Translations under genes and position numbers: made by a program | Source: Thermomucor indicae-seudaticae | Lineage: Eukaryota > Mucoromycota > Mucoromycetes > Mucorales > Lichtheimiaceae | NCBI GenBank assembly: GCA_000787465.1 | Contig: JSYX01000084.1 | Span: 19,481-83,480 of the forward strand | Direction: 5' to 3' | Length of the DNA: 64,000 bases | Notes under the pieces: model-generated | Seen by the model: the letters and a program-made list of their open reading frames with translations, nothing else | Databases searched by the model: none | Told to the model about the DNA's origin: nothing | Shown here: positions 14,152-57,178 of the stretch, in pieces | Layout of the letters: each line of letters starts with the position of its first letter | Numbering within the stretch: position 1 is the stretch's first letter

Positions 14152-17100
14152 TCAAAACGGATCAAGCATAAAGTTGTACACTTGACCAACAGCCACACCA
14201 AAGTTTTTGATGCAAGGCGTGTTGGCAGAAATGGTGTAAAAGGTAGAAAGCATGTTTGTCAGTCTAGTTGGCAGAACGGCTCTGGCCGTTTCTACTGCCT
14301 CGGACGGGATGAAATCAGTTAAAGGTATACGAACTTGATCCTGTCCTTCTACGCGGCGGCTTTTCCGCTGGCGGTTCTGTTTCTTGCTGGGCGCCTTTCT
14401 CAATAACTCCAGAACCTGTAAATGACCGGCCTCCAGTGCCATTTTCTCGGCGGTCTTGCCCATGATATTGCGCGCTTGTAGATTCGCTTTTGCGATCAAG
14501 GCCTCGACAATATCCACTTTGCCAGTCCAGCTCGCAAAATGAAGCGCCGTAAACCCGTTGTGGTCGCTTTGATCCACATCACATCCCAAGTTCACAAGTA
14601 CTCTGACCAACCGGTCGTAACCGCAAAGCGTCGCCAAATGTAACAGACTATGCTGATTCCGGTTTGTTAAAGACAATTCACCGTTATATCGAGTCTCCAT
14701 CCGCATAGCCGCGACCAGTGCTGCAATCACTTGCTCTTCCAAACGACCGATGCATAAAGTTTTGGCATTTTCGTACACAGCCATCGCAGCCTTCGCCGTC
14801 AAATTCTGTCGATACTCGATACGAAAACTGTTCATGCCAGATGTAGTTGTATTGCCCGAATCTTTATGATCGCCGCTATCACCTTGCACAATGCGCATAG
14901 CAATCTGCCGAGCATCTTCCACTCTTCCCAGCGTCTTCAAACCGACAACCTGGAGGGCAAGCTCCATTAATGCTCGATCGCTTTCGTCAAAGTAAGTGAA
15001 GAGAACAACATCTTGTCCCTCAAGAACTAAAGGATGCTCCTTAAATGACACCACCACAGGTCCTGCGCTTTGTGCTGGCGGAAGAATGCAAAGAAGAGTA
15101 TTGGGACTCCAACAATGCGTCGGGATGGCAGGATTTTCGCCAAACACGCAAGTAAGTCCTTCATAGAAGTTTGACCCTAGTACGGTTACTTCTGAACCGC
15201 CATATACAGGTCCTTCTGAAGGGATTAATCGATGAAGTCGAGGGACATTGGATGGCCTTGCACGTTCAACAGCGCTCTTCTGTTGTAATTTGGCGTACGT
15301 TCCCATGGCTTGTAATTGCTGCTGAGCACAATGCGACGCAGAAACGTGCCGTCTGCGGTGCAGAGCTGCTTGAAGTGAAGGCTGGGGTGGTTGTGGGAGC
15401 ATAGGTTGAGGGTTAAGGTTCGTTGACTGTAGCGGTAGTTGCTGTTGAATGGGTGCGTCTGAAAGACCAGATGACGGTAAAAGGTGATCCATATTAATTG
15501 TATCGGAATGCAATAAATCATAGAGCGGTCCTTGCGCTAACTGCTGGTTAGGATTGTCAAAGGTATGTGTCGGATCCGGTCCCCCTTCCTGATCCATATG
15601 AGACAGAAGGCTTTGGCTACCAGTAACCGACGAAGATGATACTCGATTGCTGGCGCTATTTAATAACTCACGGTTGACCGTAGTATCTTGGCTTATCGAC
15701 ATTCGCGGCTTCGGCGGCTCTTGAGGATCAGACATATCATCATTCTGCGAGGTCGGCGTAGGTGGCGTGGAAGCAACCGGGCTGGATATTCCTGAATCGG
15801 TTTCACCGTCGGCTTGTGTGTTGGCTGCTTTCTTTTTGGGCGCTGACAAGGGCTCTTTTACCGCAATCGTAGACGAGTCAAATTCGGCCCTCGACCTCTT
15901 CCGTCCTGTAGTCTGAACCTTGGAGCTCTTGTGGTCGTCTGTAATCATAATGGGTGGGGAGCGACCGGTTGCCACGACGTGATTATGGCTATCCTTGACA
16001 GTAAACACAATCCTAAAAGTAACTTAGATCTAAGGCGACTTGCTGGGCATAGCAATGTAAATACCTAAATCCAACTTTTTCGCTGTGGTGTCGGCAGTAG
16101 CAAGTTATTCTCGTGGGCAAAGTAACTTCCCCGTCGCCGAATTCGACGTATTCGTTGCAGTTAAAGAGCAAGATTTTCCGACGTTCGTCAGCCATAACCT
16201 TTTCGTCGCTCAAGTCTGGCAAAGCGTTCGAAAAAAGCGCTGCCAGCTTTGCAGTGCTTCCATCCTTGTTGGCTGCGCGGGCAATTTTGTTGTCTCGCTT
16301 ACGTTTTAATCTCTTTCGCTATGAAAGGCAAGTGGTTAACAATACAATCGTCAAGAGGGATGTACGTCATCAATCTACCTCTCGGTGGACGCAGCTCGTG
16401 CACATGATTATCTCATTATCAGGGTGACTATCACAAACGACTGCGGCTTCCAGGTTGAGGATTTTTGAGTCGATCAGTGCCGAGCGTTCGTCGACTGACT
16501 TTTGATTCTTTCGTTTTAATTTATCCTTGGCAACCATATGTTCAGGCAGTCGCAGATGAGACCACCCAGTGCATAGTTCGTTGTCACTATTGATCAGCTG
16601 AATACAAATCTTGATCTGGGTCTCCACACGCGACTTTGCACCAGACGGCGGCAATCCCAGAACACGAATGTGGTAGGGATTGCTCACCTTGTGAGAACTA
16701 TTAAAATTCACTTATCAGACACGCTGTGAATTGCAGAGAAGTCTCCAGGCACCTACAACAATTTTTCTTTAGATGGGTCCAAAAGTAGTTTGTCGGGCGT
16801 TGTATAATCAGAAGACGAGCTCTCGGACTTGTCGACTTTGGGGCCCAAAAGCCCATTTTGTCTGCCAAGAACTTTTTGATAAATCTCTCGTCCAAGAAAG
16901 ACATCGATAGATAAACAAATTCTCACCCGTGGAGGGCAGCCTGTGCAAGATAATCCTCAAAGTTCAGACAGTTTCGAGCCAAGACAGGAATGGCATGCAA
17001 TAAAGGATTCGCAAAAGCCTATGGATGTCCGATAAATCGTACTGAAAACGTCTCGAAAGCTGAGTGAACACATACATTAAGTAGGGACGACCCAGTTCCG

Positions 17101-23339: not shown

Positions 23340-23964
23340 TGCGCGATCTAGTGAAAAAAAGTTGTTCAGGAAGAAGTCCGCCCTCCTCGCTTGATTTCGG
23401 GACAACCCCAGGTGAAAATGGAGGAAGCAGTAGCAGTTATCGGCTATTGCGAGCAACTACAAAAAACGCTGATATTTTACTGCATCTACAACTCTGTAAG
23501 TCTTAGATAGTGTTTCCGATATCTTATGCACTTTTGAGGGGTCACATTACATATCGATCGCATATTTGGTTCCTGTTGATTCTCAGTTGGCATCTTGGAA
23601 TGAAACCGAACTGAACTCTCGGTTCTGGTTTATGGTAAGCGACAAAAAACTCTAATAAGGATGGGAAGGATAACTTCTCGGACGAGAGTGAGTATGTATC
23701 GGTCAGCAACAAGCCCTGTATAACCATTCCCGCACTTTCATGACAAACGATACTTTTGCAAGTTACGTTCGCACTTTAACATCGAACCAAATTACACTTT
23801 ATCACTGATAAAGGCAAATGTCGTCGGCAATGGTTGCTATAGACACATAGTGAGCCTGTTTCTGCAAAGGACCTGAATTTGAATATGGATGCGCCAACGC
23901 CAAAACGTCAATAAATTTAAAGAACTTCTTGCCCTGTGCCCCTCTTTTATTGTATTGTAGCACG
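23340..23964. other. Divergent intergenic region
   Basis: This is the shared upstream region of the Faf1-like gene (minus) and SCAMP (plus). No gene or RNA is evident. Confidence 0.5.
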
Positions 23965-25105
23965 ATGTCTCATCGTCAAGACAACCCTTTCGACGATCCA
24001 TCGAATCCTTTTGAGGACCCGTCTATTACTTCAGCTTTGAATTCGAATCGCAACGACGGAGCTTACCAACTTGAGCCGGATCCAATCGACAATGCCGATC
24101 AGAACCAGGACGAGTACACGTCTTTCCGCCAATATTCTGACAGCAAACTGGACCCTTTTGCCAGTGAACATGATCAGAAAGTACTAATAGACGACGATTC
24201 ATTTCAACGGTCTGGAAATGCAGCAGGCAGCAGCAGTAGTCCAAATGCAGACTTGGCTGCAAGGGAGGAAGCTTTGCGACAGAAAGAGCGTGAGTTAGCT
24301 CAACGCGAAGCCATTCTAGAGCAACAACGCGGACGCCCTCATGCCAACAACTTCCCGCCCTGTTTCCCGTTAATGTACATGGACATCCCCGCTGAAATTC
24401 CACTCAACCATCAATCGACTGTTTGGTGGCTGTATCGCGAGTGGCTCCTGTTTGAACTGACGCTTGTCTTGAACTTTATTGCCTGCCTCTGCTTGTTGTT
24501 TAAGCACCCACCGTCCGTCACCAGCGCGCCGACAGATTTTGGTATATCTCTCACAGAAATGTTCACACATACACTGGCTAGCTTTTTCTTGTGGTATCGA
24601 CCAGTGTATAACGCTTACATGAAAGAGGTGTCGTTATACTATTGTAAGCGTTTGCTCATCTACTTTATGGTTGCAAGTATGCTAAAGATGCTTGTGTTAG
24701 TCTTCTATTTCGTTTTCAACGGTTTCCATATCCTGTACACTTTCTACAAGGCTATTGGGATCCCTAGCACGTAAGTTTATTATAATGGGAAAGGTAGGAC
24801 TGAGAAGAGAAAACTAAGATGGTGGCAATTCTCTCTATATCTTCAGAGGAGGCGCTGGTCTTATCTTGGTCGTGACCCTGTTCTCGGATCAGTATATCGG
24901 TACCGGCATTTTCGCGCTGCTAGCATCCATTTGCTGGATCACTATGGGCATCCTCGCCGTCGTTTTGTATAAGCGCACATATAGTCACTATAAGGCCGCT
25001 GGTCATACCTTCCAAGAGGCCAAAAATGACGCCTATGGACGTCTGGGTCGGTCGAATGTAGCTCGTGATGCAGCCATCAATATGGCATGGAACAGCCGTC
25101 GATAG
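23965..25105 (+). CDS. Secretory carrier-associated membrane protein (SCAMP)
   Basis: Exons 23965-24770 and 24847-25105 give 354 residues. The N-terminus has two NPF motifs (NPFDDPSNPFEDPS), the usual EH-domain ligands. A coiled coil follows (REEALRQKERELAQREAILE), then the amphipathic NFPPCFPLMYMDIPAEIP and four membrane helices with WWLYREWLLFELTLVLNF. A basic C-terminal tail ends the protein. SCAMPs recycle between trans-Golgi, endosomes and plasma membrane. An ATG 36 nt upstream in frame is possible, but MSHRQDNPFDDP fits the family better. SCAMPs are well known from animals and plants and are missing in budding yeast. Confidence 0.93.
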
Positions 25106-25356: not shown

Positions 25357-28300
25357 TTAGTCTGTCTTGTCTTCCTTCTTCTTGTCTTCCCGCAGCACTT
25401 CTTCTTCGTCGCCAACTGGAGCCATGTGCTCATCAAGGTTCTCTCGCTCGTTATGAGTACCAGGCTCATGGTTTCGCAGGACCTCTATGTCCGTTTCGCC
25501 TGAAGGTAATTTCACGACACGGATCTTTGCTGTTTCTCCACTGCGCACACCACCATCGATCAGCAGTCGTGCGAGAGGATTGAGGAGTTTCTTTTGGATC
25601 AGCCTGTTCAATGGGCGTGCACCATAGGCAGGATCATATCCGCGTTCGCTCAACCAATCTCTAGCCTCAGCGTCGACGTCCAGTTTGATCCGTCTGTCGC
25701 TTACTCGTTCCTCTACTTCCTTTAAGCGGACATCCACAATATCTCGCAGAGATTTGCGCGAAAGACGGTTAAATATCACCTGACGCCTTGCAATTCAATA
25801 ACCTTGTAGACGAATGTATGATCTGCATTCCTTACCATTTCATCTATTCTGTTGATAAACTCTGGAGAAAAGGCCTGGCGGACAGCCTCCATGACGTTTC
25901 GACGAGCACTGGCGCTAACGACTCCTTCTTCGCTTACGTCTGAAACCAACGCTTCTGCGCCGAGATTGGAGGTCATAATAATAATCGTGTTCCGGAAGTC
26001 GATTTTCCTTCCTTTGCCTGATTATTGATGTCGCATTGAGTTTACAATACTCTTTACTATCGCTCTACAGGCACTTACTGTCTGTTAATACACCGTCATC
26101 TAGGACTTGCAAGAGAAGGTTGGACACTGATAACGCAAGTTAGCTTACGGTCAATAAGCCAACAGTAACAGTGTATACCATCTCTATGAGCTTTTTCCAT
26201 TTCATCCAGCAATACGACCGCGTAAGGCCGTCGGCGTACGGCTTCTGTCAATTCACCACCTTCTTCATGTCCTACATAACCAGGGGGAGACCCGATCAGA
26301 CGGCTAACGGAGAACTTTTCCCTACACAATATCAGTCAGCAACACCTTCCACGAGAGCTCCGCCCTTTGACATACATGTATTCTGACATGTCTACGCGGA
26401 CAATCGCGTTTTCTGTGTCGAAAAGGAATTGGGCAATCGTCTTGCACAGCTCCGTCTAGTGTAGTTTTCGCCGTCTGGTTGGCAAACAGGATAAAGTTTG
26501 GTATTCACTATCTGCATACCTTTCCGACACCAGTAGGCCCCAGAAACAAGAACGAGGCGATCGGTCTCGAGGGATTCTGCAAACCTGCGCGGCTAAGTCT
26601 AACGGCTTCCGAAACGGCCTGTCAAAAGGACCCTCTGTTATCTAAAACATGTCTTTGAGCGTAAGCAGTAAAATGCCTTACTGTAATCGCTTCATCTTGG
26701 CCCACAACACGCTTCCGCAGGACATCTTCCATGTGTAGTAATTTTTCACGCTCACCACGCATCAAGTTCTGAAGCAGATCCTTCACTTAGCATCTCGCGA
26801 ACCTGACGCTTGAGCAAGGCTAACTTACAGAGACCGGAATGCCTGTCATACGAGAGACAACACGAGCAATGTCATCGGCAGTAACCCGCTCATGAATAAG
26901 CGACTCGGGATTTTCTTCCTCGCCACTGCCATATGTATATCAGGTTGGAGACCTTCGCCATCCTTACTTTTGCGAAGCCCGAATGAGTGCTGAAGCTTAC
27001 CTATCCTTGGGAAGCTTCTTTTCGAGGTTCGGAATAATACCGTAACGAAGCTCAGATGCTCTCTGAAAGTTACCCGCCCGTTGCGCTGCGTTTTAGATTC
27101 GTTAGTTTTTGGTGCAATTTTCACACACAGATTCTGCGCGTATTACAGTACCTGTCTCTAACTCAACACGAGCTTGCTCAAGCTCTTCTTTCGTTCTTTT
27201 GATTTCTTCCAGTTTTTGGCTATGAAGCTATGAGTATCATGCATAGCCTCTTATCCCTACCTTCGGTAGCTTACCGTTCCTCGTTCCAGATCGCTGTTAG
27301 TCTTTCACTTTCCTTCTTCTTTTCCTCAAGCTCGGCCAAGAGCTTATCGCGTCTTTCCACTGACAGCGGGTCTGACTCCTTCCGAAGTGACTCTAGTTCA
27401 ATCTGCATTGTCATGATACTTCGATCCAGATTCTCGAGCGCCTCTGGCTTGCTTTCTTGTTGAAGACGTAGTTTCGAGCACGCTTCATCGACAAGGTCAA
27501 TAGCCTTGTCTGGGAGGAACCTTTTTTTAAACGCAAGAAGTAAAGAGCGTTAGATAGCAATGGCAGTGCAATAGAGATCCCTTTCTTTCTCTTTCCAAAC
27601 CTGTCTGTGAGATAGCGGTGGGAATGGATGGCGGCCGATACAAGCGCGGAATCCTTGATTTCAAATGAGTTTATGGATATACCGCTTTTCTTAAGCTTGA
27701 CTTACGGCTATGCGAACACCATGGTGAACTTCGTAACGCTCCTTTAACCCTCTCTATTTCATATCCTCTGTCAGTACGAGTTGACGACGTGCTCTGTATT
27801 CGTTTCTATGGAACTCACAAGAATCGAGATCGTATCTTGCACCTTTCAGATGAAAGTCAAATGTAGCAATAAGTCAAGCAATAGCGATATTATTAAGTAT
27901 TAAGACTTACAGATGGCTCTTCGACCTACTCACATCATCGACAATATCAGAGTTCAGTCAGACAAGCATAACAAGCACGGGATGTGCTTACCATGACTGA
28001 TTGAAATCTTCGGGCCAAAGCAGGATCTGCCATGATATACTATGACACACGTCAAGTTATATTAACAGTCAAAGCATACGTCGTCCGACATGCTTACTTT
28101 GCGGTACTCGTCAATCGTCGTCGCGCCCACACAACGGAGCTGCCCTCTGGCCAATGCTGGCTGCAGAAAGGAAAGTTAATAGTGTATGACAAAATATTCT
28201 AGGCTTACAGACCAACCTTTAGCAAGTTCCCTGCATCCATGGCGCCCTCTGCCTTGCCAAGGCCAAGCAACGTATGGATTTCATCGATAAACAGGATAAT

Positions 28301-29462
28301 CTTGCCTTCGGCATCGATTACTTCTTTTAATACGCCCTTTAGACGGTCCTCAAATTCGCCGCTGCATACGCGAGTCAGGATTGCAACTTGGTAATAACTT
28401 CGAATGCGGTATCTCACTCACCGAAATTTGGCCCCCGCAACAAGACTCTACGCAGGCAGGCCAATAAGTAAAGCTACATTCTCGCAAAAGGGCTCTATAT
28501 ATTCCAGTTCTTACTCCTAGATCGAGTGCAATAACTCTTCTTCCCTGGATAGACTCTGGAACTTCGTTCGCAACGATACGTTGTGCAAGTCCCTATACCG
28601 CCAACCTTCGGTCACTACGGCCAAGTCGCATCGTCTCTTTTATATACGTCTACCTCGGCAATAGCCGTCTTTCCGACACTTTATATATTCCCACGTTTAA
28701 GCTAAATGCTGACAATTCCGCACAAAGTCCAAACGATCTTACCCAGCTTCACCAATAAGCACGGGATTGTTTTTGGTCCGGCGTGCCAGGCTTTTTCAAG
28801 GAACGTTATTACAGCGGTTTTTTTTTTACCATAACATGGTCTCCCTCCTTACACTAAATGGCTCGAGTTAATTGGTGATGGGGATAAGCCTGATACATCC
28901 AAAACTACTCACCTTCTATTGTTCTACGGATTTCTTCGTCTCGGCCAATGACGGGATCTAGAATATTCAGTTTGAGTCAAAATGGGGGAAACAATGTGAA
29001 GTCCGCTTGCATGAACGCCTTACCAAGCTTTCCCTTTTCCGCCATAGCAGTAAGATCAATACCCTAAATGCCTGTGTTAAGGACACCCTGTATTGCAAAT
29101 GCCTGAATGAAAGATAGCTCACATATTGTTCCAATGGTTTTTCTTCAGGTTGCTGTTGATTCGGATTCAAGCGAAAACCGCCGCCGGGAAATCCACCGCC
29201 AGCACCACCTAGAACGACGCGGTTTTTGTGCCATTTAGCCTCTCAACCAGCGTGTCGTACTTCAAAGGACGTTACCATTGTAGAAGCGTTTAGCTGAGAC
29301 AACTGCCGCGCTCTTGAAAAAAGAAGGCGCGACAAGTTTGCTCGTGCGCGTAGCGCTCGCAAGCAGCCTTGACGTTCGAGCTTCGAGTGTAGCAGGACGA
29401 TTCCGCGAGATTCCTCGGAGAGGGGAGCTGGTTGTTGAGATTGCTCGCTGAAATCGCAGCAT
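25357..29462 (-). CDS. HSP78: Mitochondrial ClpB-type disaggregase Hsp78
   Basis: The 27-exon model gives 833 residues: 29462-29276, 29208-29123, 29063-29024, 28957-28913, 28853, 28790-28743, 28678-28654, 28592-28515, 28447-28422, 28361-28217, 28160-28098, 28039-27992, 27925-27911, 27842-27819, 27753-27706, 27653-27601, 27520-27275, 27219-27152, 27085-27001, 26925-26829, 26780-26682, 26618-26520, 26455-26376, 26321-26179, 26126-26079, 26017-25836, 25779-25357. The Arg/Ser-rich N-terminus ([20 protein letters not shown]) is a matrix-targeting sequence, and as in yeast Hsp78 there is no ClpB N-domain. Walker A motifs are GEAGVGKT (133-140) and GPTGVGKT (536-543), with [11 protein letters not shown] and a middle coiled coil. 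It resolves matrix aggregates with mtHsp70. Exon 5 is a single base. Confidence 0.93.
28853..28853 (-). other. HSP78: Apparent 1-nt exon of Hsp78
   Basis: On the gene strand a lone T sits between an acceptor (CCATTTAG, intron 28912-28854, 59 nt) and a donor (GTAAGG, intron 28852-28791, 62 nt). Exon 4 ends one base into a codon (G) and exon 6 begins with C, so G+T+C makes one Val codon. This gives [20 protein letters not shown], as the Hsp78 family requires. Without the T the frame is lost. Confidence 0.7.
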
Positions 29463-30975: not shown

Positions 30976-30980
30976 GGTAA

Positions 30981-31054
30981 GGGGTCGACCGGGATTTGAA
31001 CCCGGGGCCTCTCCGACCCAAACGGAGAATGATAACCACTACACCATCAACCCC
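30981..31054 (-). tRNA. tRNA-Pro(UGG)
   Basis: The gene strand folds as a full cloverleaf. The 7-bp acceptor is GGGGTTG/CGACCCC. The anticodon stem CTCCG/CGGAG encloses loop TTTGGGT with anticodon TGG. The T arm contains GGTTCAAATCC, which also serves as the B box. There is no intron and no encoded CCA, as in eukaryotic tRNAs. It stands alone between protein genes. Confidence 0.95.
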
Positions 31055-37315: not shown

Positions 37316-39114
37316 ATGAATTCCGACTCAAAAACCGAGGCCGGCAGCGCTGACCTTGAGGACCAAAAAGAAGTCATCGATATTAACAGTGAATATACCG
37401 TCGGCGAAAAGGTCCTGTTTGACGACAACGGCAACGAGATTTATGAGCAGACCGATGCCGAACGAGAGCTCGTGCGGAAACTGGATTATATCTATGTGAT
37501 GCCATTCATTGCCATTCTCAATTTCTTGCAGGTAACTCCTATTCCTGCTTTTGTCTGTAATCTCTTCAGGCTAGTCTAATCGGCAATTGTTTTCCCTTCA
37601 GTTCTTCGACAAATCAGCTTTGAACTACTCGAGCGTGCTGAATCTAAAGGAAGATACGGGCACGACAGCCTCACAATACAGCTGGCTAGGTTCCATATTC
37701 TACTTGGGATACTTGGTTTATCAAGTAATGAATTCGATATTCGTTTCCTTTGTCTGATACGGCAGCTAATAACTCGACGTCCTTTTTGGATAGGTGCCCA
37801 ATTCTTTGCTCATTCAGCGCTTGCCTCTGGCCAAGTACATTGGTATCTTGATCTGCATGTGGGGAATGGTGCTCGCGATTACTTCGGAAGCCAAGAACTT
37901 TTCGCAACTGGCTGCACTTCGTTTCCTTTTGGGTATCTTTGAAGCCGGTGTTTACCCGACTGCAGTGATCCTGGTCAGTATGCTGTACCGCAGAAGAGAA
38001 CAAGCAGGCCGTCTTGGTGTCATTTATATCTGCAATGGTCTTGCTATGGCTTTCGGTGGCTTGATCGGCTATGGTGTCGGCAACATGCAAGACGTACGCG
38101 GCAAGAGTGCCTGGCAATGGTAAGTTAAACGGGGAATAACTTTACAGCGCTCTATAACAAGAACACGAGCGACTCACATAGAACTTTCTTTTCACTGCTA
38201 GGCTCATGATTATTCTTGGCTCAGTCACCGTCTTTTTTGGTACCTTTTGCTTCTTCTTTTTGATTGATAATCCAAAGTCTCGATTTCTCCATCTTACGGC
38301 TGAGCAAGAGGAAGTAGTCGAAGCCCGTCTTCGTGACAATGCTGTGGTCCGTACCCGCACAATCAAGTGGCACCATATGGTCGAAGCTCTCTGTGAGCCA
38401 CGCTTCTATTGTCTGGTGTTTACTTCATTACTCATCAACTTTCAAAACGGTGCCATGAACACGTTCAGTGCCATCATTACTAAGGGTTTTGGCTTTTCGG
38501 TAATTCTAGAAAGCGGCGCTGCTGGCGAAAACATGTGCACTGATGCTTTATCTGATGTCATAACCCAGAGTCTTAATGCTATCTTACTCAGCATTCCTTC
38601 GGGCGTCGTGGACTGTATCTTGATTGCGATTGCGGTCTGGTACAACCGTCGCTATGGCAATACCATCTACCTTGCCTGCGTTTTCCTAGTCATCGCCATC
38701 GTGGGTCTTGTCTTGCTCGTGGCTATCCCCAAGTCGCAAGTGAAGCTGGTCGGTCTTTACCTGTCGTGGTCTTACTGTGCTTCCTACACGCTCTTGCTCG
38801 TCTGCGTTACCAATAACGTGTCTGGCTACACTAAGAAAATCTTTTACAGCAGCGGTATCATTGTAGGCTACACAGTCGGTAACTTCGTCGGACCACTGAT
38901 GATGGTATCGTGGCAAGCACCACTGTATCTTGGTGGTATGATCGCGTACATGGTTGCTGATGCGATCTGTATCATTCTTTTGCTCATTGCTCGGTACTTT
39001 ATGGCTAAATCGAACAAGGCCCGTTTATCATCGGCTGGCACCATTGAGGCCTCCAAACCCAATACAGAGGACCTCACAGACAAGGAAGATCCCGCATTCA
39101 TTTATAGACTGTAG
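37316..39114 (+). CDS. MFS permease, Dal5/allantoate (ACS) family, copy 1
   Basis: Exons 37316-37531, 37602-37724, 37794-38119, 38202-38499 and 38569-39114 give 502 residues and about 12 membrane helices. Family features are FFDKSALNYSSVLNLKED after helix 1, LPLAKYIGILICMWGMVLA, RFLLGIFEAGVYPT and FFFLIDNPKSRFL, then NVSGYTKKIFYSSG. The family imports anionic nitrogenous or organic-acid solutes such as allantoate, nicotinate or dipeptides by proton symport; the substrate here is unknown. The 69-nt segment 38500-38568 is flanked by GT-AG and open in frame. It is treated as an intron because the neighbouring paralog lacks it. Confidence 0.92.
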
Positions 39115-42247: not shown

Positions 42248-44840
42248 TCAGTCAAGGTCCTTTCCTACTAACGGTGGTTTTGCGTTGTTTTCCAGGACAA
42301 TCTCGTTGCTAAGCATAGGTTTGTAGCAGTGACTCGGAGTCCTGGAAGTAGAAGACTCGAGGGCTGGTAACGGTATATCCTCCAGCGGTGAAGGTCCTGA
42401 TAGGGAGGCTACGGAGGAGCTAGACGGAGATGGAGGTGCTGAGGCCGAAGAGAAGTATACTGATGATTCTGCGTCATCAGCTGTAGAAGGCGCTGTCTGG
42501 GGTTCTTCTGAACACTTTTCGACTGCTCGTGCAGTTTTGTTGCTGGCTGTCTCATCATCCAGTTCTGGTGCAATGCTCGTCGGTGTATGGACAACAGAGG
42601 GGGCGCGTACAGTCTGTATAGAGATAACAGAAGGCGTCGAGTGCTGACTAGGTGCCCGCGACAGTGGGTACTTGTTGTTATTATTATTGCCTGTACAAGT
42701 AGTAGCAATAGCTTCGTCCTGTTCCCGGACTGACGAAGATGAAGATCCATGGGTGGAAGAAGAAGAATCCAGAAACTGTTGGATGGCTTGCGGTTGCTGT
42801 ACAGGGAGAGGCCGAGATATCGGTCCAATTCGGCCACCATTGAAGCGAGTAGAAACATCACGTAAAAGAGTACACCATGACAACAATTCTTCGTGGGAAC
42901 TGGCACGGAAAGCGTAAACTTTGTCTCGCTGAAGCACTTGATTCCCTCGTCGATGAATCTCGAATGTCAAACTACTATTTGGCTGATCCACTTGTTCTGT
43001 ATCAATGGAGAATACAACGGTAGTGTCCGGGATATAAATGGAACGCTCAGGCGAGACCTTGTTATCCAGCGTGAATTGATGCAGATAGCCACCTAATAGT
43101 CGTTCAGTCTATAGATATATACCAGCCTCTTTGAAAAGACATAATGTACAGCTTACATTGGCTGAGGACATAATAACGCTCAGTATATTGCCTACGAACT
43201 CCAATACGACGTTCAAGGACTCCTTTGGCTAAAGTCATGACGTGTGGACTCATTTTGTTTGGATAATTGATCTTGAGATAGTCCTTTTTCGGATTCTGTT
43301 CATCGACCAGATCCTTCTTTTTGCTCTCGTAAAACCGTTGCCATTCATGATCCGGCATGAGCTGGTCCATAACAAGTTTAAAAGCTGCCGTCTCAGTATC
43401 CGCTGTACCATTCCATAAGCCAGGTGCCAGCCGTCGATAGCAGTATGCAATGGCTGGCTTGATATGTTCGAGCACGCGTGCTTCAAAGGCAGCAGTGCCC
43501 TTCTGTATTGGTACCATGAGTTCACGCATCCGGTTTTCTTCATCGACTTCTCGTTTCAGCTGGCGAAGTACATCTAGGTAGGACAGTAAAGTGAGCCATG
43601 GCTTTTCCTTCCATCTGGCTAGTATATATACAAGCATACAGAGGTTCGCTAACCAAGGATCATGTTCAACCGCTTGTCCACTGGCTGCTGCTGCCTCAGC
43701 TGCCTTACAATACTTGTTGAGCGTCGCCATGCTTTTCCGTGTGGTTTCTGCCCGTCTCAGCAATTCATCCATGACCAGGTCCGGTTCTTCCTTGAGTCCA
43801 CGAATCATTTCCTTGCATTCCTTTCGTAACCTGAACAGAGCCGGAATAAAGTCATGCTGAATCTTTCTACCAAACTCCTTTTGTTCGTTGGCCAGTTGCA
43901 TCGTGAGCATCTGCAGACCCGCTCGCATAGTGTTCATGGCATCTGGGCCGTCGTCATCATCGTCCCTGCCACTATTCCCTTTTACCCAAGGAAGTGCGCG
44001 GTGCGAGTAGCAGCGACTGCTCTGAAAACTAATCTTGGCTACTTCCTCCAACCAATTCGTGACAGCTTTCAAGAGATGGTGCCATTGTTGGAGACGCGCA
44101 ATGATCACTTCCGCTCGGTTCAGACTAAAGATGGTCGGCATGCGCGGGTTCTTGCCGTTATTATGCTCATGATGTTCAGAAGAAGAAATCGACTTTGAGC
44201 GACCGAAAAGTCTCGACGACTTTTTCTTTTTGGTATTGCTTTCGTTTTCGCTCTTGTATCCTTGCAGAGGACCATCTTCGTCGTGCGAATCAGAAAGTGG
44301 AGGAAGAAATCGAGTGGACTGAGTTGGACCAAACTCGTCGTCACTGGTTATAATGCTACTACTGTTGTTGCGGCCTTTGAGGTTTCGAGACGAAAACGAT
44401 CGGTAAAGCGATGACGAACTCCAAAAGGCAGAATTGGATAAGGGCGGTCGGCCCTCAATTGCAAGAGGTGTCGAGCTGCTGGGCGAAGGCAGACCTCCTC
44501 CGTTCCAAGTATCTATAGTGGAAGTACTGTTATTCTTGCCGTGCAGAAAGGGACGCAAGCTGGGTTTATTGTTCTGACGCTGAGGCTTTCGAGTGATGGA
44601 GACATGAAAATCAGTATCAGCAAGTGCTTCTAGCAGTTCTGGAGGAGGAACATGATCGAATTGTTCTTCAAATCGACTTTTATATGGCCTCTGTTTCTGT
44701 TTCTTATCCACGGATTTGGCTCTTACTGTTGTTGTCGTCGTTGTTGTTGGATGTTCTGAAGAAGTCAGCGTGCTGGTGGTGGGAGACTTCCGAAGCTTGC
44801 TTTTCTCAGGTAAAGGGGGAGCTACCGTCGACTGCATCAT
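42248..44840 (-). CDS. Slm1/Slm2-like PH-domain protein
   Basis: Exons 44840-43157 and 43092-42248 give 842 residues. A long Ser/Thr/Lys-rich N-terminus precedes a BAR-like helical region (about 250-500: EVIIARLQQWHHLLKAVTNW, MQLANEQKEFGRKIQHDFIP). A PH domain follows at about 545-660 (RRQYTERYYVLSQ, GYLHQFTLDNKVSPERSIYI, ELLSWCTLLRDV). The tail is disordered and Ser/Pro-rich. Yeast Slm1/2 bind PI(4,5)P2 at eisosomes and activate TORC2 signalling; that role is inferred from architecture. The intron splits the PH domain. Confidence 0.87.
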
Positions 44841-54425: not shown

Positions 54426-57178
54426 ATGGAAGATGTCCAGTCTTCCCTGACTCAGGCGACTCAGCTTGCGGAGAATGGCCAAACGAAGGTATGGCGGGTG
54501 AAGTTGCGAACCATAAATGACGTCGGCCAAGCGACTCTTTTACCTGGGTTATGCTAAAAGAGCTTGATATTCACGCCCGAGTTTTTGTTTCTGTATATTT
54601 GTCAAGGACGCATATATGATGTACCTGTCGACAGTTCAGCAGTCCCTGCAGCGACTGTATGAAATCAAGTTCGTTCATTCCTGTGAGTCCTTTGTTGCTC
54701 TGCCCAAGCTGTAGATATCGAGAGGGCTTTAACCTTGGCATGTGAGCTTAGCCATTGTATCCCAGCCGAAGCAGTATTCGGCATTGATCTCCGCTATGCG
54801 AACATGCTTAGCACATATCGAGAATATCATCGAGACACATTCGCCGTCCGCCAAAGTTCGAGTCCTACCTTCTTCTACCGATGAACGTTCCTCCATATCA
54901 CAGAGCAGAGTGCCGCCGCCACCATTACCACCCAAGCCATCACGAATACAGAAACCAAATATACCACCGAAACCAGTATTGACTGCAACATCGTCCTTGC
55001 CCACGCCAGACCAGATAGATGAAAGCAGCACAGAGGGTAAATAAATTACGGATGTTCGGGCTCTGACCTTCACTCACACGTGGTCTATACATATATGTAT
55101 TCGCAGTCCACCATATACCACCGGAACATGCTAGCAGTAACAAATTGACAGTACCCCCGCCTAGGGTGCTGCCTCCTCGTGCTGGCAACCAGAGACAGCA
55201 GCAACAACAACAACAACAACAACAGCAGCAGCAGCAGCGTCCATCTTCTGAGGTACGACCTGTTAGCGCACCTCAACCTGTATACGAATCTTCAGAAGAT
55301 GCTTCAGTACGGCCTTTCTCTGAATATTCCTCCGATCATAAGCATCTCCGTTCACTTGGAAACAGGATTGTGGCCGAAGGTGAAGTAGACCCTGGACATC
55401 TCGTGCCAGCTCAGACAAATGCAGGCGACAGCCTGAGCCCTCCTGGCGCTGCAACCCTCAATACCGACCACGTTCCCCTGATCCCTGCTCCTCCACTGCT
55501 AACTACTCACCGCGTACTGCAAAGCAAACTGGATGAACTCGAGGCTTCTCTGAAAGACTATCGCCGTAGAAAACAACAATTGCTGCAGGAAGGGAAACCG
55601 GATAGCCAAGGCATGTCTGAAGACGATTTGAACCGGGTCATATTGCAGTATACAGCTATCACAGCAGAGATCAAACACACCCTGAACCGGGTACGCACAC
55701 TGTACATGAGTGCAGCCACGATCCCTTCTGTGCTCCAGTTTCCGGTGCATTTGGTGGCGTATCAAATAACACTGATAGAATCCGCTATCTTTCGCAATAT
55801 ACCACCCGAAGCCTTGTTGGAACACTCACCAAAGAATCCAAACCCACGCATTGTCGCATCCACTGACTTTTTCAATTACTTGACCCGTATCATCGAGCAT
55901 GGCATTTTGTTACCACAGGAGGCGTCTACTCGTGCACAGCATATCAACCATTGGATCAAAGTCGCTTCTAGATGTTTGGATCTCAACAATTATCAGACCT
56001 TGAAAGCCATTGTTTCGGCATTGGGCACGCCTCCTGTGCAACGGTTACGACGGACATGGGCCTATATACCCAAAAAGAGTCTCACCAAGCTTGAGACGCT
56101 AAGTGAACTGATGAGTGAGAATGACAACTATGGGAAATACCGTGAACATATGGGAATGGTGAACGCCTCCGTGATCAACGGTAAAAGCGTCAGTACGATA
56201 CGTGCAGAGCATTTTACGAAACCTACGGTACCGTTCCTCGGAACATTTATCCACGACATGACGTACCTTGTCGCCGCAGCAAAATCCAGTAACCAACCAC
56301 CTAGCAGCGACCGACGCGTACAAGAGGTCTTGAGAACCATGAAACGATTCCAAGAGGGACCTCCATACTCTCCTGTGCCACCTGGATGGTTTCTCAAGGC
56401 GTCTCAAAAGCATCATCTGCGACCGGCATTGTCGAATGCATTGCATCGAAGTGCATCAGGGATAGGTCGCTTTAGTGGGGGCATGTTTGGGATAACAAGC
56501 CAAAGTGGCGATGACGATGGCGTGAAAGAAAGTATGGACGACGAAGAAAATTTGGAAGAGCAGCAGCAGATGGTAACGCAGTTCATACTGATGCGATCAT
56601 GGGTGAGCCAAAACACGGTGGATGAGCTGAGCATGTTGCGAGAACCACCTCGGCAGAGCAAGACAAGTGCTTCAGGCGTGTACAGCCAAAACCGCAGCAC
56701 AACTGGCAGTAACCATCACACGAGCTCGATTATCAGCAATACCAGCTCGCTGATGCGGTTCAGCACAGGAAGCGTGTCATTGAGCACGTTGAGCGGCAAC
56801 ACGGTTGGCGGACCCGAGAGCCGAGCAACAAGTATGGACGATTCGCCACCAGAATATCCAACCACGAGTGGAAGCAGCGCTCGAAGCAGTGAAGATCCAG
56901 AAGGAACAAAGTATGCAGCAGCAGGAGGCGGAGGGGGAGGCTTCTGGCCTTTCCGGCGCAGTGCGGATCGAAGCAGCGATCCCTCTAGTTATACAGCGTC
57001 AGAGCCATTAAAACAGAATGAAGACGAGTCCATGCATGGCGGCTGGTCCGGACGTGCAAATGACAATACAGCGCCCCATATACCTCCTCGACCACCGAAA
57101 CGGAACAACAATGAACAGGATTTTAAAAATGCCCTTTCGCAGAAACTTCAAGCTCAAGTCGCAGCGCGACATCCCTGA
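54426..57178 (+). CDS. MIT-domain Ras guanine nucleotide exchange factor
   Basis: Exons 54426-54488, 54607-54682, 54752-55036 and 55107-57178 give 831 residues. Residues 1-45 read as a MIT-type helical hairpin (LTQATQLAENGQTKDAYMMY). Proline-rich SH3-ligand stretches follow (VPPPPLPPKPSR), then a Gln run of about 15. A RasGEF catalytic domain lies at about 345-590 (FPVHLVAYQITLIESAIF, QHINHWIKVASRCLDLNNYQ, PTVPFLGTFIHDMTYLV). The tail is Ser-rich with PPRPPKRNNN. RasGEFs load Ras/Rap GTPases with GTP; MIT domains usually bind ESCRT-III. The first intron is about 118 nt, longer than most here. Confidence 0.87.

Follow-up and report, generated by a model that had tools for sequence, protein, structure and literature searches.

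The gene for Hsp78, the mitochondrial ClpB-type disaggregase, in Thermomucor indicae-seudaticae very probably carries a constitutive exon of a single nucleotide, a T at position 28853 that lies between two introns of ordinary length and supplies the second base of a conserved valine codon. Both introns are predicted from sequence to be removed, with the T kept in the mRNA. The exon may be old, shared among relatives of this fungus and usually missed by annotation software. Positions are those of the window, by which is meant the whole 64-kb stretch of DNA that was analysed.

Gene model and layout of the proposed exon

The Hsp78 gene was modelled by reading of the minus strand and by spliced alignment, giving 27 exons, a coding sequence of 2490 nt with the stop codon, and a product of 829 amino acids. 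An earlier sequence-only reading had likewise counted 27 exons and had put the coding sequence at 2502 nt, a figure that differs by 12 nt and is replaced here; both lengths are multiples of three, and the argument from reading frame is thus unaffected. The template protein for the spliced alignment was drafted in this analysis from the minus-strand reading of the same DNA, so independent support for the model is taken from homologues. The best listed protein matches share 79-85% identity with the product over 95-100% of the query (85% over 95% for the top listed match, P0001, and 83% over 100% for Syncephalastrum), and the product also matches 59 distinct solved-structure sequences, of which ClpB and Hsp104 rank first. 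The highest-ranking matches that carry a name are proteins of Mucorales, which marks this order as the most likely source of the DNA. The gene and the features around the site are as follows.

25357..29462, minus strand: Hsp78 gene (mitochondrial ClpB-type disaggregase), ATG to stop, from spliced alignment and homologues named Hsp78
28913..28957, minus strand: exon 4, 45 nt, last letters ...ATAGAAG (phase 1), the final G opening the Val codon, from direct reading and spliced alignment
28854..28912, minus strand: intron 4, 59 nt, GTGAGT...CCATTTAG, candidate branch TTAAC, from spliced alignment
28853..28853, minus strand: exon 5, a single T in the middle of the Val codon G-T-C, from spliced alignment and model enumeration
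28791..28852, minus strand: intron 5, 62 nt, GTAAGG...GAAAAAG, candidate branch TAATAAC picked by eye and not a strict YTRAY, from spliced alignment
28743..28790, minus strand: exon 6, 48 nt, starts with C then CTG GCA CGC in phase 2, from reading and spliced alignment

The gap between exon 4 and exon 6 is 122 nt and divides into a 59-nt GT-AG intron, the T, and a 62-nt GT-AG intron, which leaves exactly one nucleotide between two introns of normal size. The other 24 introns of the model measure 52-80 nt (mean 62), so an intron of 122 nt would be an outlier, and lengths of 59 and 62 nt are typical, as the sequence-only reading had proposed from local intron sizes. The coordinates and sequences that it assigned to exon 4, the two introns, the T and exon 6 proved exact on rereading, and the meeting of a phase 1 exon 4 with a phase 2 exon 6 was confirmed by reading and alignment. 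Its claim that the T restores valine also holds: a direct join of exon 4 to exon 6 shifts the frame and meets a premature stop, and inclusion of the T gives IEVLARR with the conserved Val, after which the exon 6 product leads into the Walker A motif. By comparison with homologues and paralogues, the single nucleotide is needed both for the frame and for the conserved protein. The statement that a single intron would break the frame is correct for the full 122 nt, but the sequence-only reading passed over two in-frame donors at 28908 and 28905, as well as the likely presence of the exon in other species. Among the proposed branch points, TTAAC in intron 4 stands as a candidate, but TAATAAC in intron 5 fails the strict YTRAY pattern; intron 5 has no strict match, and the same is true of 11 of 25 other introns. 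A search of the genome DNA with 28743-28957 returned one match, the locus itself.

The same Hsp78 model holds four more very small exons, all placed by spliced alignment.

28654-28678, minus strand: small Hsp78 exon, 25 nt
28422-28447, minus strand: small Hsp78 exon, 26 nt
27911-27925, minus strand: small Hsp78 exon, 15 nt
27819-27842, minus strand: small Hsp78 exon, 24 nt

Elsewhere in the window are a tRNA gene and five open frames with Pfam matches, located at 14152-16008 and 43104-44840 on the minus strand and at 23929-24774, 38206-39114 and 55145-57178 on the plus strand. The matches are TIG + ankyrin (SPT23/MGA2-like), BAR/PH, SCAMP, MFS transporter and RasGEF.

30980-31054, minus strand: tRNA-Pro (TGG)

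Splice-site scores and chance expectation

Splice sites were scored with matrices trained on the other 24 introns of the same gene. The donor and acceptor of intron 4 score 8.1 and 0.5 bits, and those of intron 5 score 6.9 and 4.3 bits. In a leave-one-out comparison, 15 of the 24 training donors score at or below the intron 4 donor and 12 at or below the intron 5 donor; the corresponding numbers for acceptors are 2 and 18. The weak acceptor of intron 4 is the main blemish of the one-nucleotide-exon model.

Frame-preserving, stop-free models of the region were enumerated; introns could be GT-AG or GC-AG, had to measure 40 nt or more, and were penalised for a GC donor. Ten models resulted, two with one intron and eight with two. 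The one-nucleotide exon scores best (24.6, with a runner-up at 14.9) and is the only one to yield IEVLARR with no added residues, which supports the interpretation first given to the gap. Chance was gauged with 2000 dinucleotide shuffles of the 122 nt, in which six bases were fixed at each end and GT donors alone were allowed. Equal-scoring one-nucleotide-exon models arose in 10 shuffles (in 3 with T as the exon), and equal-scoring frame-restoring models of any type in 89. The pattern YAG-N-GTRAG occurs seven times on both strands of the 64-kb window, the T 28853 site included, or about 0.007 times per 122 nt. The layout alone is therefore strong evidence, short of overwhelming, and it becomes convincing once the conserved residue and the relatives are added.

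Gene-model breaks at the same codon in homologues

The comparative evidence consists of protein gene models of relatives, among the matches listed, rather than of DNA. Three protein searches, from each of which the best 120 of 8000 scored candidates were kept, gave 142 different Hsp78 homologues, which were grouped by clade. When the first 120 listed homologues were aligned pairwise to the Hsp78 model, 29 of the 112 that reach the exon 4/6 junction had indels there. At other junctions in conserved sequence, indels were found in 0-8 of 99-120 listed homologues, and the junction with eight is the end of exon 6, which overlaps the failure at the one-nucleotide-exon codon. Two poorly conserved junctions, after exon 1 in the leader (36 of 89) and after exon 19 in the linker (77 of 120), were treated as uninformative.

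The proportion of listed models with an intact Val or Ile at the site differs between clades. It is 16 of 46 in Mucorales (two without coverage of the site), 0 of 3 in Umbelopsidales (one without coverage), 0 of 1 in both Endogonales and Calcarisporiella, and 0 of 18 in Glomeromycotina. Intact models make up 28 of 28 in Mortierellomycotina, 7 of 7 in Zoopagomycota, 14 of 16 in chytrids (one with an insertion, one without coverage), 3 of 3 among other named taxa, and 16 of 19 among the remainder with no clade label (three without coverage). The 16 intact models in Mucorales imply that some relatives lost an intron or were annotated correctly. One chytrid model, Spizellomyces P0093, is broken at the same codon (V...FR-LSRR). 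Deviating models carry inserted junk, lack parts of exon 6, start or derail before exon 6, or (in ten models) replace Val with Gly.

The form of these errors can be compared with what the proposed splice sites predict. If the donor after exon 4 lies in phase 1, a wrong continuation must open with a GNN codon. All 43 deviating models that keep the exon 4 anchor do go on with G, A, V, D or E, residues whose background share in the proteins is 37.7%; this count sets aside 82 intact rows and 17 rows without the anchor, two of which (P0132 and P0134) are intact. After subtraction of the ten Val-to-Gly rows, 33 rows from 27 genera are left, all GNN-compatible. If exon 6 begins in phase 2, read-through of its acceptor should put AGN (Ser or Arg) in front of the Leu. 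Ser or Arg precedes the Leu in 18 of 26 rows and 13 of 19 genera (28 rows minus the intact P0132 and P0134), against a background of 14.2%, with the qualifications that rows of the same genus are not independent and that Ser or Arg from non-AGN codons looks identical in protein. Two further tails, L-V in Apophysomyces P0010 and I-V in Parasitella P0027, would match TTA GT then C and ATA GT then C, that is, an AG followed by a retained T. The other six of the 26 (Zychaea P0006, Umbelopsis P0023 and P0036, Cunninghamella P0033 and P0057, and Radiomyces P0043) fit neither pattern.

Cunninghamella echinulata P0038 offers the clearest example, with the reading ...RRTLEVWPEEQKIILVGKT. One DNA can encode the expected stretch in one frame and the WPEEQKIIL of P0038 one base on, and the model thus reads as if exon 4 ran straight on into exon 6 with one base missing. 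A comparable shifted stretch, WHVEQKIIL, follows junk sequence in Circinella P0009, and none of 20,000 random 9-mers was compatible with such a +1-shifted reading.

Glycine at the one-nucleotide-exon codon is found in P0002, P0003, P0004, P0015, P0024, P0031, P0034, P0035, P0049 and P0050. In these ten public models it is probably an annotation artefact, since the three Phycomyces models disagree with one another at the site (Val in P0030, Gly in P0031, an insertion in P0048). Such a Gly would be produced if an alignment had set the transcript base T against the G that opens the donor GT.

Transcript hints and paralogues

Several entries from relatives bear on the expected mRNA. P0001, an 801-aa frame that runs unbroken on a contig of 3315 nt, is 94-96% identical to three Lichtheimia models and reads Val at the site; provided that its gene is as intron-rich as the Hsp78 gene described here, it would derive from RNA. 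P0018 (828 aa on 2627 nt) also has Val, as do the models of L. ramosa and L. hyalospora, and P0029, the model of Lichtheimia corymbifera, has its start shortly ahead of exon 6 (MDHYAR-LARR). Degenerate patterns for the donor of exon 4 and the acceptor of exon 6, used to look for genomic DNA of relatives, had no match in viral contigs; in genome contigs they gave none in one search and eight stretches in another, none of them a fungal Hsp78. Read in frame, two of the eight (L010 and L011) resemble bacterial ClpB, and the remaining six are unrelated.

The same assembly holds two paralogues, labelled Hsp104-like in this analysis, on contigs C2 (L002) and C35 (L003), with 72% and 71% identity to a 176-aa query piece and no internal stop. 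Both cross the homologous site unbroken, which is counted in favour of the one-nucleotide exon. The loci on these two putatively fungal contigs have a GC content of 0.52 and 0.56, above the 0.44-0.48 of the window.

Alternative explanations for the gap

It is very unlikely that the gene has an ordinary single intron here and that the mismatch in phase stems from a sequencing or assembly error or a true frameshift. The assembly does consist of 735 contigs, but two whole introns of normal size would then surround the AG-T-GT core by accident, an outcome as rare as the shuffles indicate, and a break at this codon recurs in the models of many other species. There is very little to be said for one intron of 118 nt from the cryptic donor at 28908 (GTAGTT), or of 115 nt from 28905, with the products IEGDLARR or IEGEYLARR. 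Both are in frame and free of stops, and short insertions of a similar kind occur in the Radiomyces and Gilbertella models (LEGILARR and LEGRLARR). They score -8.6 and -9.0 against 24.6 for the one-nucleotide exon, however; the 28908 donor reaches 0.2 bits, below 23 of the 24 training donors, the intron would be an outlier in length, and residues would be added where the listed homologues with a sole residue between E/Q and L have Val (80), Gly (10) or Ile (4).

A longer micro-exon of 7, 9, 12 or 18 nt within the 122 nt is highly improbable: seven frame-preserving models of this type exist, but the best is the runner-up at 14.9, which is 9.7 below the one-nucleotide model, and all seven add residues where intact homologues hold one. 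A [D1,2] stwintron, with an internal intron lodged between the G and the T of an outer intron's donor, is extremely improbable: G28913 ^ T28853 has the formal layout, but the loss of G and T on removal of both introns shifts the frame into an early stop.

Comparison with known one-nucleotide exons

The sequence-only reading had remarked that a few one-nucleotide exons are described elsewhere, and the literature has them in APC11, VPS55 and the Fusarium gene CYP621A. The APC11 exon of Arabidopsis and other land plants is reported to be kept in most land plants, whereas most monocots have intronless copies (PMC4674806, PMC8831610). Like the putative Hsp78 exon it is one nucleotide between two spliceosomal introns, essential for the frame and absent from annotations; unlike it, APC11 belongs to another kingdom, is another gene, and is confirmed by RNA, whereas the Hsp78 exon is predicted from sequence. 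The VPS55 exon is described as conserved in land plants, with a conserved GTRAGT donor (PMC8831610). It too is a single nucleotide, in a different gene, and some plants are reported to make VPS55 transcripts both with and without it.

The closest parallel in fungi is CYP621A, whose one-nucleotide exon is reported to be confined to Fusarium/Nectria and confirmed by SRA reads, within an apparent intron of 139 nt that is more than twice the median (PMC12940212). Both cases concern a fungal nuclear gene in which one nucleotide completes a codon in a conserved motif, a phase-1/phase-2 mismatch, an overlong apparent intron, and an intronless relative used as a ruler. They differ in that Hsp78 is a chaperone and that its exon, predicted from DNA, possibly spans several phyla. 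The [D1,2] stwintrons of ascomycetes (PMC12403724, PMC5639578) likewise involve two introns with ordered removal, but there the nucleotides on either side of the inner intron are part of the outer one, an outcome that in Hsp78 breaks the frame. The listings of the literature searches showed no one-nucleotide exon in Hsp78 or in a zygomycete; in a Mortierella paper (PMC4462047) the matching term refers to a software option only. The kind of exon is already known; the gene and the lineage appear to be new, and the likely age appears to stand out.

Proposed order of splicing

In the proposed mechanism, two ordinary short U2-type introns, in phases 1 and 2 of one Val codon, would flank one T and leave one after the other by intron definition, the mode of recognition that is assumed for fungal introns of this size. 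One nucleotide is too small to hold a 3′ splice-site complex and U1 together, so that the introns would have to leave in turn, and stepwise splicing can soundly be inferred from this constraint. Removal of intron 5 first is somewhat favoured, because its donor and acceptor have the higher sum (11.2 against 8.6 bits), and intron 4 would then face a normal exon. Were intron 4 removed first, AGT would still precede the intron 5 donor, as AG closes exon 4 and intron 4 alike. Removal of all 122 nt together, the T included, shifts the frame and leads to an early stop, and use of G28913 plus the T as a donor also leads to a stop. Sequential removal around the Arabidopsis APC11 exon is argued for by Guo and Liu (PMC4674806), where a potato 9-nt exon is cited as a case in which the second intron leaves first.

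Probable age and significance of the exon

The arrangement was probably inherited from a distant common ancestor, as this one codon is where listed models from Mucorales, Umbelopsis, Jimgerdemannia, Glomeromycotina and Calcarisporiella go wrong. Their errors place a donor at phase 1 and, for some of the models, an acceptor at phase 2. The balance of these protein models tilts towards an exon that is homologous in Mucoromycota, Glomeromycota and Calcarisporiellomycota, perhaps also in Spizellomyces, with intron loss in Mortierellomycota and some Mucorales. If so, the Hsp78 exon would be among the oldest constitutive one-nucleotide exons, and it would have escaped notice because all 18 Glomeromycotina models among those listed are wrong at this codon.

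With Hsp78, early-diverging fungi would have a one-nucleotide exon in a conserved chaperone gene. The lineages with and apparently without it would form a natural series for testing how the spliceosome deals with an exon that is too small to hold two complexes together, and the same series bears on how one-nucleotide exons arise and persist. These observations also suggest that hidden micro-exons can be traced through mistakes in public gene models, and that many Hsp78 entries from Mucorales and Glomeromycotina need checking.
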